Assembly (NCBI RefSeq): GCF_017306585.1
Contig: NZ_JAFKIC010000159.1
Coordinates: forward strand, 1 to 36,923
Direction of reading: 5' to 3'
DNA length: 36,923 bases
Source: Mesorhizobium sp.
Lineage (GTDB): Bacteria; Pseudomonadota; Alphaproteobacteria; Rhizobiales; Rhizobiaceae
The translations under genes and the position numbers were made by a program. Shown here piece by piece: positions 10,116-21,012 of this stretch (the first letter of the stretch is position 1; each line of letters starts with the position of its first letter). A model generated the notes under the pieces. That model searched no databases and was not told the DNA's origin. It saw nothing but the letters and a program-made list of their open reading frames with translations.

Positions 10116-12218
10116 CTATTCGGCTGCCGTGCGCATATCGAAATCCGCCACCGCGTCGACGATCGGCGTGTCGCGGCGGTAGGGCCGCGAGCCGACATCG
10201 GCGCCGATCTCGCGCGCGAGCTTGTGGCCGCTGTGCACCGCATGCGCGATGGCGCCCGGCGCCAGTGTGTCGCCGATGCGGTCGATGCCGCGGATGCCGG
10301 CGGTCGCGAGATCGTCGGCGCGTTGCGTCAGGGCTTCGAAGAGTTCGCCGCGCGGCAGGCGCAGCCCGACGATCAGCACCGAGCGGCAGGCGAGGCGGGT
10401 CTCTTCACCGGTGAACAGATGCGCGAGCGTCGCCGTCTCGCCGTCGAAGGATTTCAGCAGATGCAGCGTCGTCACCGGAACGTTGCGCCTTGCCAGCGCG
10501 CGATGCACCAGCGGCAACTCATTGGTCATGATCGTCCAGGCGGAGGCCTGGCCGGCCGGGGTGACATAGCTGACCGGAATGCCTTGCGCGGCGAGATGCT
10601 CGGTCAGCACGCCGCCCATGTAGTAATTGTCGAAATCGAAGACGAGCGTCGGCCCTTCCGGCATCCGTCCGGCGGCGATGTCGTCGGGCGTGAAGACGCC
10701 GGGATGGTCGAGCCGGCCGACGGGAATCTCCAGCGAGGAATAGAGCATGTTCGTCCAGCGGGCGCCGGTCGCCAGCACGACGCGGTCGGGCGCGAGATCG
10801 ACGATCTCGTCGACGCCCAGCGCGCTTTCGGCGTAAAGCGAGACATTGCTCATCTCGCCAAGCCGGCCGAGCCGGTAATCGACGACACGGTTCCAGGCCG
10901 ACAGGCCGGGCAAGGTCTTCTCGAATGTCAGGCGTCCGCCAAAATTCCGGTTGGCGTCGGCAAGCGTCACCTCATGGCCGCGACGGCCAAGCGTCAGCGC
11001 GCATTCGAGGCCGGCGGGACCGCCGCCGACGATCAGGATACGCTCCGGCCTGTCGGCGCGCCCGGCGCGTTCGGGGTGCCAGCCGCGCCGCCATTCCTCA
11101 CCCGCCGTCGGGTTCTGGGTGCAGCGCACCGGCACGCCGTCATGCCAGCTCGAAATGCAGATGTTGCAGCCGATGCATTCGCGGATTTCGGTCTCGCGGC
11201 CCTCACGGATCTTGGCCGGCAGGAAGGGGTCGGCGATCGAGGGCCGCGCGCCGCCGATGAAGTCGAGCACGCCGCGCCTGATCTGCGACACCATCGTGTC
11301 GGGGGAGGTGAAGCGGCCGACGCCGACCACCGGCTTCTTCGTCAGCGACTTGACGAAATCGATCACCGGTTCATGGCTGCCTTCGCCGGTGAAGCGCGAT
11401 GCCGAACAGTCGGTCGGGCTGGAATCCATCTTGACGTCGAACAGGTCGGGAAGATCGGCGAGCAGCTCGACCAGTTCATGCGCTTCGGAAGGCTGGTTGC
11501 GGCCGGGCCGGCCGCGCAATTCCTCCAGGCTGACCCGCAGCGCCACGCCGCAATCCGTGCCGACCGCGTCCTTGGTGACCTCGATCATCTCGCGCACGAA
11601 GCGCACCCGGTTCTCGATCGATCCTCCGTATTCGTCCGAGCGGTGGTTGTATTCCGGCAGCAGGAATTCGTAGCCGAGATAACCCATGCCGGCATAGACG
11701 TAGACGATGTCGAAGCCGGCCGTGCGCGCCTTGCGCGCCGCCTGCGCCTGGCATCGCAAAACCTCCTTGATGTCGGCCCTGTCCATGGTCTTGGGCCTGA
11801 GATTGCCCATGAAGCCGACATGGGTGGCCATCCACGGAATGCCCGACGGCGAGAGTGGCGGCAGGCGGCTCGCCCTATTCATGACGGAGGCGCCGCCATG
11901 CCAGAGCTCGACGCCGGCAAGCGATCCGTGACGGTGCACCGCTTCCGTCATCAGCGCATGGGCGCGGATGTCGTTGTCGTCCCAGAGCGTGGCGAAGGGA
12001 AGCGGCGCGTCGTCGGAGGTCGGGTCGATCGAACAGGCGCCGGTGCAGATCACGCCCCAGCCGCCCTCGGCCTTGGCTTCACGGAAGGCCGCGCGGACGC
12101 GCGGCAGGGCGTTGGTCATGCCGCTCGCATGCGGCACCTGGTAGAAGCGGTTGGGCGCCGTGACAGGCCCGATCCGCATCGGCTCGAACAGGATTTCATA
12201 GCGGGGATTGCAGGTCAT
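10116..12218 (-). CDS. Trimethylamine dehydrogenase-family flavin/4Fe-4S oxidoreductase, possibly an N-methylproline demethylase
   Basis: A 700-residue cytoplasmic enzyme of the TMADH/2,4-dienoyl-CoA reductase type. An N-terminal FMN-binding TIM barrel (1-345) is followed by the 4Fe-4S ligands C348, C351, C354 and C366 (CIGCNICISSWHDGVPVRC), then a nucleotide-binding domain starting with ILIVGGGPAGLECAL at 394. The sequence around YVYAGMGYLGYEFLLPE and RPSIADPFLP is clearly TMADH-like. Family members demethylate tertiary amines and release formaldehyde. By eye, the TMADH active-site His three residues after the conserved Tyr is Met178 here, and the Tyr before CSI is Ala61. A substrate other than trimethylamine, such as an N-methylated amino acid, is therefore likely. 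The start is the ATG at 12218; a longer frame runs through the palindrome. Regulation is probably through the operator at 12229-12268. Confidence 0.83.
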   Translation of the reverse strand: MTCNPRYEILFEPMRIGPVTAPNRFYQVPHASGMTNALPRVRAAFREAKAEGGWGVICTGACSIDPTSDDAPLPFATLWDDNDIRAHALMTEAVHRHGSLAGVELWHGGASVMNRASRLPPLSPSGIPWMATHVGFMGNLRPKTMDRADIKEVLRCQAQAARKARTAGFDIVYVYAGMGYLGYEFLLPEYNHRSDEYGGSIENRVRFVREMIEVTKDAVGTDCGVALRVSLEELRGRPGRNQPSEAHELVELLADLPDLFDVKMDSSPTDCSASRFTGEGSHEPVIDFVKSLTKKPVVGVGRFTSPDTMVSQIRRGVLDFIGGARPSIADPFLPAKIREGRETEIRECIGCNICISSWHDGVPVRCTQNPTAGEEWRRGWHPERAGRADRPERILIVGGGPAGLECALTLGRRGHEVTLADANRNFGGRLTFEKTLPGLSAWNRVVDYRLGRLGEMSNVSLYAESALGVDEIVDLAPDRVVLATGARWTNMLYSSLEIPVGRLDHPGVFTPDDIAAGRMPEGPTLVFDFDNYYMGGVLTEHLAAQGIPVSYVTPAGQASAWTIMTNELPLVHRALARRNVPVTTLHLLKSFDGETATLAHLFTGEETRLACRSVLIVGLRLPRGELFEALTQRADDLATAGIRGIDRIGDTLAPGAIAHAVHSGHKLAREIGADVGSRPYRRDTPIVDAVADFDMRTAAE

Positions 12219-18078: not shown

Positions 18079-19575
18079 ATGACGCTGAACTTCGACCCAA
18101 GGGCGAAGGCCTCGACGCTCTACCATGGCGAGTTCCGGCCGATGTTCATCGGCGGCAAGTGGGTCGCGGCGCAGTCCGGCGAGGTGATGCAGGCGCTGAA
18201 CCCGGCGACGGGAGAGGTGCTGGCGACGGTGCCGCGCGGCGGCGCCGCCGACATCGACGCGGCGGTGGCCGCCGCCCGCGCGGCCTTCGAAGGCCCGTGG
18301 TCGAAATTCTCGCCCTACGAACGGCAGTGCGTGCTGCTCAGGATCGCCGACCTGTTCGAGACACATTGGGAAGAGCTCAGCGTTTCCGACACGCTCGACA
18401 TGGGGCTGCCGATCACCCGCACGCTGGCCAACCGGCGCCGCGTCATCGGCATGCTGCGCTTCTATGGCGGCATGGCGACCGCGCTGCATGGCGAGGCGAT
18501 CGACAATTCCATCCCCGGCGAGATCGTCACCTTCACCCGGCGCGAGCCGGTCGGCGTCGTCGGCGCCATCATCCCCTGGAACGCGCCGACCGCCGCTTCG
18601 ATCTGGAAGATCGCGCCGGCGCTCGCCACAGGCTGCACCATCGTGCTGAAACCTTCCGAGGACGCCTCGCTGACGCCGCTGCTGATCGCGCAACTGATGC
18701 AGGAAGCCGGTGTGCCGGACGGCGTTGTCAACATCGTCACCGGCACCGGGGCGGAGGCCGGCTCGCGGCTGGCCGAGCACCCTGATGTCAACAAGATCGT
18801 GTTCACCGGCTCGACGCTGACCGGCCAGGCGATCGCGCGGGCAGGCGTGAACAACCTCAAGCGCGTCTCGCTGGAACTCGGCGGCAAGTCGCCGATCATC
18901 GTGTGCCGCGACGCCGATATCGACAAGGCCGTGCCTGTCGCGGCCATGGCGGTGTTCGTGCATTCGGGCCAGATCTGCATCGCCGGCTCGCGGCTGTTCG
19001 TGGCGCGCGAGATCCATAACGAGTTCGTGCGCCGGGTCGGCGAATTCGCCGGCAAGCTGCGCATCGGCCACGGCATCGAGGCCGAGACGGAAATCGGGCC
19101 GCTCATCAACGCCAGGCAGGCAGGCAAGGTCGAAGGCTACATCAAGGCCGGCAGCGACGAGGGCGCAGAACTTGTCGCCGGCGGCTCGCGGCTGACGGGC
19201 GACCTCTATGACGGCGGCAATTTCATCGCGCCGACGGTGTTCGGCGCGGTGTCGGACAAGATGACGATCGCGCGCGAGGAGATTTTCGGGCCGGTCATCT
19301 CGGCCATGCCTTTCGACACGCTGGACGAAGCGGTGGCGCGCGCCAACGCCACGCCCTATGGACTGGCCGCCGGCATCTTCACCAGCAATCTGGGAACCGC
19401 GCACAAGCTGGCGCGCCGCGTCAAGGCGGGCTCGGTGTGGGTCAACATGTACCACGCCATCGATCCCGCGGTGCCGTTCGGCGGCATGAAGATGTCGGGC
19501 TACGGCCGCGAGGGCGGCGTCGAGCACCTGCACGAATATCTGGAGACCAAGGCGGTCTGGATACAGACCGACTGA
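18079..19575 (+). CDS. Aldehyde dehydrogenase (NAD(P)-dependent)
   Basis: A 498-residue cytoplasmic enzyme that oxidises an aldehyde to the acid. The catalytic Cys300 lies in SGQICIAGS and the general base Glu266 in SLELGGKSP. Asn168 in IIPWNAP and the cofactor motif FTGSTLTG (242-249) are in place. Length and order are normal for the family. AAGGAGGAAGAG stands directly before the ATG at 18079. The gene is divergent from the SDR operon and probably co-functional with it. Its stop is 10 nt before the inverted-repeat element at 19586, which may serve as its terminator. The specific aldehyde is not evident. Confidence 0.93.
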   Translation: MTLNFDPRAKASTLYHGEFRPMFIGGKWVAAQSGEVMQALNPATGEVLATVPRGGAADIDAAVAAARAAFEGPWSKFSPYERQCVLLRIADLFETHWEELSVSDTLDMGLPITRTLANRRRVIGMLRFYGGMATALHGEAIDNSIPGEIVTFTRREPVGVVGAIIPWNAPTAASIWKIAPALATGCTIVLKPSEDASLTPLLIAQLMQEAGVPDGVVNIVTGTGAEAGSRLAEHPDVNKIVFTGSTLTGQAIARAGVNNLKRVSLELGGKSPIIVCRDADIDKAVPVAAMAVFVHSGQICIAGSRLFVAREIHNEFVRRVGEFAGKLRIGHGIEAETEIGPLINARQAGKVEGYIKAGSDEGAELVAGGSRLTGDLYDGGNFIAPTVFGAVSDKMTIAREEIFGPVISAMPFDTLDEAVARANATPYGLAAGIFTSNLGTAHKLARRVKAGSVWVNMYHAIDPAVPFGGMKMSGYGREGGVEHLHEYLETKAVWIQTD

Positions 19576-19585
19576 GGCTGTTTCT

Positions 19586-20096
19586 TTCGTCATCCTAGGG
19601 CGGAGCAAGGAGCGAAGCGACGCGCGCAGACCCTAGGATCCATTCCGTGACATCAAAGCATCGCAACGGTGCAGAACGCTCACCACCCGGTTCCGCGGAA
19701 AAGCTCAAACCAATCTGGATTCGCTTTCTCGATGAGCTCAATCTTCCACTGCCTTGCCCAGCGCTTCAGTGATTTTTCTCGCTGAATAGCATCAGTGATA
19801 TCGAAATATTCCTCATACCAGACCAGCCGCTGAACGCCGTAGCGACTGGTGAATTGCGACCCTTGCCCGGACTTATGTTCGGGCATACGGCGGCCAAGAT
19901 CATTGGTGACGCCGATATAGATTGTGCCGCGCTTTTTGCTCGACGTCATGTAGACATAGCCGGTCATGGATTGACGTTAGCTGTCAAAGCGAGCGCCTTC
20001 TATCCTGGACCGCAGCATTTTTCGACCGACGTCACGGAATGGATCCTAGGGTCTGCGCGCGTCGCTTCGCTCCTTGCTCCGCCCTAGGATGACGAA
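19586..20096. mobile_element. 511-bp element: GIY-YIG gene between perfect 66-bp inverted repeats
   Basis: The left arm 19586-19651 and right arm 20031-20096 are exact reverse complements over all 66 nt. Each arm contains its own inverted pair, ATCCTAGGG and CCCTAGGAT (19592-19600 and 19631-19639 in the left arm). The 379 nt between the arms hold a single gene for a GIY-YIG protein. The element fills the gap between convergent genes: 10 nt after the aldehyde dehydrogenase stop, 19 nt before the LysR stop. No target-site duplication is visible (TTTCT on the left, GGGTA on the right). I recall the arm sequence as a repeated motif in Mesorhizobium genomes, unverified. Mobility is inferred from the symmetry; the arms could also simply act as bidirectional terminators. 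Confidence 0.65.
19680..19967 (-). CDS. GIY-YIG nuclease superfamily protein
   Basis: A 95-residue single-domain protein. The N-terminus has the two GIY-YIG strands (GYVYMTSSKKRGTIYIGVT), followed by NDLGRRMPEHKSG with the catalytic-type Arg. The pattern AIQREKSLKRWARQWKIELI and the ending ANPDW are typical of the small stand-alone family common in alphaproteobacteria. Members have a metal-dependent nuclease fold, but their cellular role is not established. The gene lies wholly inside the 66-bp inverted-repeat element and points toward the aldehyde dehydrogenase gene. No strong ribosome site is visible before the ATG. It may be the element's own nuclease or a passenger gene. Confidence 0.88.
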   Translation of the reverse strand: MTGYVYMTSSKKRGTIYIGVTNDLGRRMPEHKSGQGSQFTSRYGVQRLVWYEEYFDITDAIQREKSLKRWARQWKIELIEKANPDWFELFRGTGW

Positions 20097-20115: not shown

Positions 20116-21012
20116 CTAACCAGCCAGTTCGCGCAAATTGGTGCGGATGAGGTTCATCAGCTGTTCGGAGAAGGAGTGGTGCACGTAGCCGCGCGCGGTG
20201 ATGATGCCGACGGAGCGGTGGGCGTCACGATGGTCGATGGGCACCACGCGCATGCGTTCGTCGTTGCGCGAGATGGCGATGCCGGGCACCACGCAGACGC
20301 CCAGGCCCGACGACACCAGCGCCACCGCCGTCTGCGCGCTTTCAACCTCGTATTGCGGCTTGAGCTCGATGCCTTCCGCCGCCGTCAGCCGGTCGACGAG
20401 ACCGCGCACCGCCGTCTTGCGATTGAGCAGGATGAGCGGAAAGCGCTGCAGGTCGGATAGAAGCAACTTCTTCTCGCCGCCGTAGATTTCGGTGGGGATG
20501 CAGGCCATCAGCGGATCGTCGAGGATGGACTCGAACTGGAAGTCGGTGAGGTTAGGCAGTTCCGGGCCGATGTAGAACTCGACCTCCTGCTGCTGCAGCA
20601 GGCTGAGCGCGGCCTGCGGCGGCAGTTCGATCACCTCGACGATGGAGCGGGGATAGCGCAGCTTGAACGTCGCCAGTATGTCGCCCAGCCGGCTTGCCGC
20701 AAGGGTGGGCGCGCAGGCGATCTGCACCTTGCCCTTGCGCCGCGCGGCGATCTCGGTCAGCCGGTCGAGGCTGGACTGCACCTGCGACATCGCATTGGCA
20801 ATCTCCTCGAACAGCACCTGGCCCTCGGGCGTCAGGCTGGCGCGTTGCGCGGTGCGGATGAACAGCGAGATGCCGATCTGCTCTTCGAGGTCGCGGATCT
20901 GCATGGAGACGGCCGATGGCGAGCGGTTGCTCTCTTCGGCAGCGCGACGGAAGCTGCCGTTTTCGGCGGCAAGCAGGAACGTCTGCAGAAGTTTGAGGTT
21001 GATGCTGGACAT
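20116..21012 (-). CDS. LysR-family transcriptional regulator
   Basis: A 298-residue regulator. The N-terminal winged helix-turn-helix is at 3-60 (LLQTFLLAAENGSFRRAAEE, then SPSAVSMQIRDLEEQIG). The ligand-binding domain from about 90 opens with GKVQIACAPTLAASRLG. It is transcribed toward the GIY-YIG element and follows the sugar transporter ATPase gene by 123 nt on the same strand, so it could be the tail of that operon or have its own promoter. Likely targets are the transporter operon to its right or the dehydrogenase genes to its left; neither link is shown. The effector is unknown. Confidence 0.9.
   Translation of the reverse strand: MSSINLKLLQTFLLAAENGSFRRAAEESNRSPSAVSMQIRDLEEQIGISLFIRTAQRASLTPEGQVLFEEIANAMSQVQSSLDRLTEIAARRKGKVQIACAPTLAASRLGDILATFKLRYPRSIVEVIELPPQAALSLLQQQEVEFYIGPELPNLTDFQFESILDDPLMACIPTEIYGGEKKLLLSDLQRFPLILLNRKTAVRGLVDRLTAAEGIELKPQYEVESAQTAVALVSSGLGVCVVPGIAISRNDERMRVVPIDHRDAHRSVGIITARGYVHHSFSEQLMNLIRTNLRELAG

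Follow-up and report, generated by a model that had tools for sequence, protein, structure and literature searches.

The window analysed here is a 36,923-nucleotide stretch of DNA from Mesorhizobium sp. (contig NZ_JAFKIC010000159.1, positions 1 to 36,923). Within it lies a 507-bp unit (19588–20094) that begins with a CGTC tag on the left, ends with a GACG tag on the right and encloses a stand-alone gene for a GIY-YIG nuclease of 95 amino acids on the minus strand (19680–19967). The unit is flanked by two convergent ORFs (18079–19575, plus strand, and 20116–21012, minus strand), whose products we read from their sequences as aldehyde-dehydrogenase-like and LysR-type, respectively.

The ends of the unit are formed by two arms of 69 nt each (19586–19654 on the plus strand and 20028–20096 on the minus strand), which are 99% complementary, with a sole mismatch at the 67th base. 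Each arm consists of a CGTC tag, the 5′ side of a 9-bp stem (ATCCTAGGG), a loop of 30 nt and the 3′ side of the stem (CCCTAGGAT) followed by a CCA tail. In the left arm, these parts occupy positions 19588–19591, 19592–19600, 19601–19630 and, for the 3′ side and the tail together, 19631–19642. The right arm has its tag, which reads GACG on the plus strand, at 20091–20094, the 5′ side of the stem at 20082–20090 and the 3′ side with the tail at 20040–20051. In both REP hairpins (19588–19639, plus strand, and 20043–20094, minus strand) the tag faces outward. The sequence-only reading that preceded this analysis had described a 95-residue GIY-YIG gene between arms identical over 66 nt, each with an inner hairpin, located between convergent genes; all of these features were recovered here, with the identity covering the outer 66 nt (19586–19651 and 20031–20096).

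When the two flanks of the window gene were compared with each other, the inverted-repeat score reached 66.5; the highest value obtained in 350 shuffles over 70 loci was 15. Additionally, the stem is backed by paired changes among relatives (ATTCTAGGG/CCCTAGAAT); a further stem variant found in relatives, ATCCACGGG/CCCGAGGAT, contains a mismatch. Folding energy was dropped as support for the hairpin, since it proved uninformative: as DNA, the arm folds unexceptionally (−11 kcal/mol, z −0.67). A scan of the window by the strict hairpin rule given below found one more CGTC hairpin, at 11946–11969, which has no CCA tail.

The protein matches the GIY-YIG family of Pfam (PF01541, E = 5.4e-17), and its only other Pfam match at E ≤ 0.001 is T5orf172; at this threshold neither NUMOD nor any further DNA-binding domain was found. 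All matches to NCBIfam fall below their cut-offs. Six residues (Y6, Y17, R27, H31, E64 and N83) are the same in all 26 proteins compared, and the gene is under purifying selection, with a median Ka/Ks of 0.054 (343 pairs, 28 genus copies). The structure was predicted with a pLDDT of 90.9; its top structural match is the UPF0213 protein 1zg2 (E 1.3e-4), and a weaker one (E 0.01) is Slx1, a branched-DNA nuclease. With Slx1-like prokaryotic GIY-YIG proteins and UPF0213 (PDB 1zg2, 1ywl), the window protein thus has in common a minimal stand-alone domain, the same fold and the motif residues. According to Dunin-Horkawicz et al. 2006 (PMC1564403), Slx1-like GIY-YIG proteins are characterised by a missing C-terminal Asn, and stand-alone bacterial members are grouped in the Slx1 cluster. 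A predicted repair role is cited there for these proteins; the word stem "palindrom" occurs nowhere in the text.

Neither the arms nor the gene are unique in the source genome (385 contigs, 7.09 Mb in total). A search with the arm gave 55 matching places at E ≤ 10, of which the final few are weak. PF01541 has three matches, namely the window gene, a second small gene on contig C268 and one within a 743-aa frame, which we take to be UvrC. Both small genes are enclosed by arm pairs. The second gene-bearing unit (G000:C268) has the same length of 507 bp and is 79% identical to the first overall and about 95% identical in the arms. Moreover, among 30 arm loci of this genome, we could pair 13 distinct gene-less dimers, ten of them 181–183 bp and three 217–224 bp long, whose ends match those of the gene-bearing units, in part to about 90 nt inward. 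Many copies of the arm, and units both with and without the gene, are what the sequence-only reading had predicted. Around some Mesorhizobium dimers (L378, L380–L382 and the outer flanks of L042 and L066), we observed an inverted shell beyond the REP tags (GATTGGCCGAAACG ... CGGCCAATC), so that the units may sit inside a larger repeat.

Comparison of orthologous sites shows that units are gained or lost and that they come and go at the same positions. The window site holds the unit in the source genome and in one relative (G009); five further relatives that share the DNA on the LysR side lack it there. We compared another orthologous site in 24 genus genomes: 16 of them have no repeat, 6 carry a REP dimer (whose left hairpin was, in two cases, recognised by eye and missed by the scan) and 2, the source genome among them, have a solo hairpin tagged at both ends. 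Empty sites in sister species, which had been anticipated from the sequence, are present at both positions. A unit located between sufB and sufC in Azospirillum lipoferum is missing there from four other aligned Azospirillum records. Among Sphingobium plasmids, the site is filled in 7 records and empty in 4, of which 2 keep a solo double-tag hairpin. The plasmids of the Rhizobium tumorigenes group, considered as a further case of insertion, were rejected, as they are explained instead by deletion between neighbouring dimers.

The location between sufB and sufC recurs in Azospirillum lipoferum and apparently Niveispirillum lacus (L310 / L188), and in Shinella sp. PSBB067 (H10/H53) a GIY-YIG match lies inside a suf match. 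This location may reflect either an old insertion or a preferred site.

A target-site duplication was looked for in 96 elements and seen in none, so that the chemistry of insertion cannot be read from them; the compared flanks are too diverged for an exact reading of insertions. In 14 of the 61 genomes, we counted 19 solo hairpins of one exact pattern, against 295 single-tag hairpins (summed counts). They interchange with dimers at an orthologous site and were considered as footprints of excision by the nuclease. However, slippage between the direct copies of the 8–9 bp stem arms suffices to explain them, and they were not counted as proof of cutting.

To describe the pairing of gene and repeat beyond the source genome, loci were pooled from relatives, from a class search (matches in 40 of 115 genomes), from a phylum search (59 of 249) and from a set of named genomes, which holds the best 80 of 575 confirmed stretches, i.e. 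the closest matches to the window protein. After removal of identical copies, 215 of 227 loci remained; being homologous to each other, they are not independent trials. A hairpin was accepted under the strict rule if it had a CGTC, TGTC or CCTC tag and a stem of at least 7 starting with AT, and lay within 300 bp of the gene. By this rule, outward hairpins are present on both sides of the gene in 93 loci, only upstream in 30, only downstream in 31 and on neither side in 61. The loci with hairpins on both sides comprise 40 of 70 in relatives, 6 of 29 in the class set, 12 of 42 in the phylum set and 35 of 74 in the named set (best 80 of 575). Among 352 mechanical ORFs from 20 arbitrarily chosen 20-kb regions of gene-holding genomes, which served as a control, none had such hairpins on both sides and 8 had one on a single side. 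The tags point mostly outward, with 141 outward and 45 inward upstream and 146 and 57 downstream. Beside the genes there are 2.83 hairpins per kb, compared with 0.0475 per kb in the control regions; the latter are mostly coding, so the comparison with ORFs is the fairer one. A looser hairpin scan was abandoned because the controls scored too (62 of 352 on one side and 2 on both).

The strict rule undercounts, as some loci without an accepted hairpin carry variants, e.g. CGTCATCCCCGCGCAAGCGGGGACCCA or CGCTC-tagged hairpins. We therefore also applied a test free of such rules, in which the 300-bp flank on one side was compared with that on the other and the best inverted repeat had to score at least 20. 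It covered those 208 of the 215 loci whose gene scored at least 100 bits and whose flanks were long enough on both sides. Such a repeat was found in 139 of 208 loci and in none of the 352 controls, whose maximum was 16.5. One or the other both-side test was positive in 152 of 208 loci, and evidence of any sort was obtained for 184; the remaining 24 have neither an outward hairpin nor an inverted repeat scoring at least 20. By either both-side test, pairing was detected in 61 of 73 loci of the named set (best 80 of 575), 27 of 41 of the phylum set, 11 of 29 of the class set and, by subtraction, 53 of 65 of the relatives. The class set, in which likeness to the window protein played the smallest part in the choice of loci, thus shows the weakest pairing; evidence of any sort was found in 21 of its 29 loci. 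Taken together, these sequence comparisons establish that the gene and the repeat are paired, with the tags prevailingly outward, and it is well supported that a GIY-YIG gene is paired with REP palindromes in many bacteria.

As for the breadth of this pairing, either both-side test was positive in 42 of 48 alphaproteobacterial loci of the named set (best 80 of 575) and in 20 of 26 others, 7 of which carry only "bacterium" or "Proteobacteria" as a label. Within these best 80 of 575, the others include Omnitrophota, Uhrbacteria and "Deltaproteobacteria" (2 of 2 each), Desulfobacteria, Planctomycetota, Dehalococcoidia and Gammaproteobacteria (1 of 1 each), Bacteroidota (2 of 3), Betaproteobacteria (1 of 3), and Armatimonadota, Elusimicrobiota and Fidelibacterota (0 of 1 each). 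The majority of these loci lie on contigs from metagenome-assembled genomes, and several of the non-proteobacterial ones could be misbinned. Phage records yielded one weak match in 50,697.

A relative of the gene was also found in a Neisseria gonorrhoeae record amid CGTCATTCCCGCGCAGGCGGGAATC repeats, which we read as dRS3, relying on PMC3733652 and on our own reading of the repeats. This is a chromosome-sized entry filed under plasmids: the PLSDB plasmids include such records of Neisseria gonorrhoeae (L308, NZ_CP119140.1) and Aeromonas caviae (L316, NZ_AP026896.1). On plasmid p1 of Planktothrix agardhii (L317), a GIY-YIG gene lies between an MmeI-type gene and DISARM drmA, amid many TGTCATTCTGAGTGAAACGAAGAATC repeats, which may represent yet another repeat type of this sort. 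Four proteins with the motif G(M/H)TDDLARR (L094, L095, L100 and L101) have hairpins tagged with CGCTC instead of CGTC, hinting that the tag may change with the protein subgroup.

Matches to the window protein were obtained in 35 of 61 relatives. Of the 37 genus genomes, 21 have at least one; when fragments and broken copies are counted, the number per genus genome runs from 0 to 9. Arm number rises with the number of gene matches in the 37 genus genomes (rho 0.61, with a loose arm count and phylogeny uncorrected), and this holds once two arms per gene match are subtracted (rho 0.53, phylogeny likewise uncorrected). Arms are still present in 13 of the 16 genus genomes that have no gene match, which is what old or trans-mobilised copies would give.

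The type of loop also follows the protein tree. The 158 labelled loci comprise 39 with a loop of 4 nt, 41 with a loop of 5 nt, 74 with a long loop and 4 others. The tree was built from 110 proteins, after leaving out those more than 85% identical with the same loop label as well as the 4 labelled "other". Among the 78 genes with loops of 4 or 5 nt, the tree requires 15 changes of loop type; in 300 shuffles the number averaged 26.4 and was never below 22. With long loops included, 36 changes are needed, against a shuffle mean of 52.0 and a minimum of 46. These figures come from an alignment of few columns and a tree with many open forks, with labels set by a script (some "long" ones are doubtful) and host relatedness left in.

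Fourteen more distant GIY-YIG loci had been meant as a negative control, yet 9 of them have inverted repeats. Inspected by eye, all nine repeats have a TGAG...CGAA core and represent a second repeat type, e.g. CATCCTGAGCTTGTCGAAGGATG. A test for this core, designed only once the repeats were known, was not counted as evidence. In this second clade, 11 of 19 distinct genes have an inverted repeat scoring at least 20 (13 of 22 rows before the duplicates L289 = L329, L296 = L332 and L299 = L330 were removed); one member, L293, was placed by eye only. A third group of the same size, which we take to be YhbQ-like and which took over the role of negative control, gave no flanking inverted repeat of at least 20 in 14 loci (maximum score 12.5). 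The repeats thus accompany particular nuclease clades and not GIY-YIG genes at large.

Two second-clade genes, L294 (G072:C1:2429400-2433700) and L298 (G287:C1:489400-493600), run in-frame into the downstream gene. From their sequences, we read the partner of L294 as RNA-methyltransferase-like and that of L298 as another protein. With repeats on both sides, the fusions may be a by-product of insertion. A similar GIY-YIG/SPOUT fusion in Erythrobacter, with a suggested role in RNA, is noted in PMC1564403.

The sequence-only reading had named nuclease genes in conserved synteny without the arms, and arms spread with no link to GIY-YIG genes, as observations that would refute it. On the whole, its interpretation is supported: many gene loci are paired with repeats (152 of 208 by either both-side test). 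Leaning the other way are the YhbQ-like group (0 of 14), the 24 bare loci among 208 and the arms of 13 of 16 gene-less genomes.

The arms of the window fit the class of CGTC REPs described by Di Nocera, De Gregorio and Rocco (2013, PMC3733652), judging by their sequence, as a long-loop variant rather than a standard member. According to that paper, the two have in common the CGTC (or TGTC/CCTC) tag, a stem of 8–9 bp starting with AT (the 9-bp stem of the window being one such) and the CCA tail, which is found in the window and in most of the other hairpins inspected. They also have in common the prevalence of inverted dimers, and CGTC REPs, too, occur mostly in Alphaproteobacteria. The loop differs, with 30 nt in the window and 4–5 nt in CGTC REPs, for which loops of other lengths are noted in Bradyrhizobium and two others. 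Some CGTC repeats are equated in PMC3733652 with the known dRS3 of Neisseria and RPE-4/RPE-6 of Rickettsia. The second difference concerns the gene: PMC3733652 reports no associated enzyme gene, whereas the window dimer contains one for a GIY-YIG nuclease. There, CGTC elements are said to be seemingly without a dedicated transposase, with no RAYT or IS200 gene between them, and broad-spectrum transposases are proposed to move them.

With MITEs and insertion sequences, the unit has in common inverted ends and an autonomous form accompanied by short derivatives, but it has no transposase gene inside and no target-site duplication. Another comparison is with REP/RAYT systems (REPtrons), with which the name of Nunvar et al. 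2010 is reportedly associated. As in REP/RAYT systems and REPINs (Bertels and Rainey 2011, PMC3116915), inverted dimers of palindromes form the units, some dimers are gene-less, an enzyme gene lies beside the REPs and the repeats are spread in intergenic DNA. Nevertheless, RAYT is a tyrosine (HUH) transposase that cleaves its REP and is encoded between REPs tagged with GTAG, whereas the window has a GIY-YIG nuclease and CGTC tags. Although it would operate in the manner of a REP/RAYT system, the unit does not count as one, since both enzyme and tag differ. This agrees with the earlier suggestion, made from the sequence, of a REP/RAYT-like system with a different nuclease.

In our view, the 507-bp unit is probably the autonomous member of a REP/REPIN-like mobile family, with the CGTC palindromes as its ends and the GIY-YIG protein as its dedicated enzyme. 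The short gene-less units, of nearly fixed length and with both ends common to the gene-bearing unit, were counted in favour of such a family. We infer that the nuclease cuts and moves REP hairpins, and the cutting, the cut site and the route of reinsertion below are to be read in this sense. The GIY-YIG protein would recognise the REP hairpin when it is extruded, either from a single-stranded lagging strand or as a cruciform, and would nick at or near the tag at both ends of the unit. The unit, released or copied, would then enter a new site, and the target bases would not be duplicated. Short gene-less dimers would borrow the enzyme in trans, as has been proposed for REPINs and RAYTs. Decay of a unit by deletion between the repeated stem arms would leave behind a solo hairpin tagged at each end.

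The most serious alternative, which we nevertheless regard as unlikely, is that the gene behaves like a homing gene and parasitises REP dimers: the REPs would spread by other means, and the gene would lodge in their spacers and copy itself into other dimers. GIY-YIG is a superfamily of homing endonucleases, one of the weak, below-cut-off NCBIfam matches is to group I intron endonucleases, the gene lies between REPs in most loci, units are gained and lost, and arms are present in gene-less genomes. Such a parasite is less readily reconciled with the lack of NUMOD or any further domain in Pfam, with short dimers that match the ends of the gene-bearing unit beyond the arms, or with strong purifying selection on the gene. 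The agreement of loop type with the protein tree also speaks against it, although the same would be expected of a parasite whose target is narrow.

It is somewhat less plausible still that a structure-specific nuclease is kept beside the REPs in the service of the host, resolving their hairpins or cruciforms at replication forks and not moving them. UPF0213 and Slx1 are the nearest folds, and purifying selection would be expected on this account as well. A host gene, however, needs neither empty orthologous sites nor a position inside a repeat pair, and the number of matches per genus genome varies from 0 to 9, with broken copies among them. The YhbQ-like clade is the better candidate for a host function, and none of its 14 loci has a flanking inverted repeat.

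We give little credence to a third alternative, by which the gene is cargo of units moved in trans by an unrelated transposase. Many DDE transposases leave a target-site duplication, and the 96 elements have none. Additionally, the same gene clade occupies the spacer across several phyla, and a second clade has a second repeat, although broad-spectrum transposases have indeed been suggested for CGTC REPs (Di Nocera et al., PMC3733652). Finally, despite the position of the unit between two convergent genes, the idea that the arms are bidirectional terminators of local origin, matching by chance or through an assembly artefact, was rejected as having almost no chance of being right, given the 55 matching places in the genome, the recurrence in unrelated records and the 0 of 352 controls.

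The reading of the unit as a REP/REPIN-like mobile family can be extended, more tentatively and with rather more doubt than confidence, to stand-alone GIY-YIG nucleases as a new class of mobilising enzyme. At least two clades might each drive their own palindrome family, one being the CGTC/TGTC REPs, including Neisseria dRS3, and the other the CATCCTGAGC-TTGTC-GAAGGATG type, by structure-specific cutting of hairpins and without a transposase of known type. In the open-licence full-text literature (preprints excluded), judged from titles, the beginnings of abstracts and term counts, we found no description of GIY-YIG proteins linked to REPs.

Beyond what the sequence-only reading had proposed, the arms belong with a named superfamily, the CGTC REPs, and the pairing reaches well past Mesorhizobium. 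These two results bear on a question stated as open, namely which enzyme serves the CGTC REPs, and they point to the GIY-YIG enzyme as the partner that this repeat family had been said to lack. Dunin-Horkawicz et al. 2006 (PMC1564403) raise the question of whether other GIY-YIG members are molecular parasites. If the pairing holds, it would answer both this question and that of Di Nocera et al. The proposal is approachable with small parts, a protein of 95 residues and a hairpin of 55 nt, and, if true, would provide a function for genes annotated merely as "GIY-YIG nuclease family protein".
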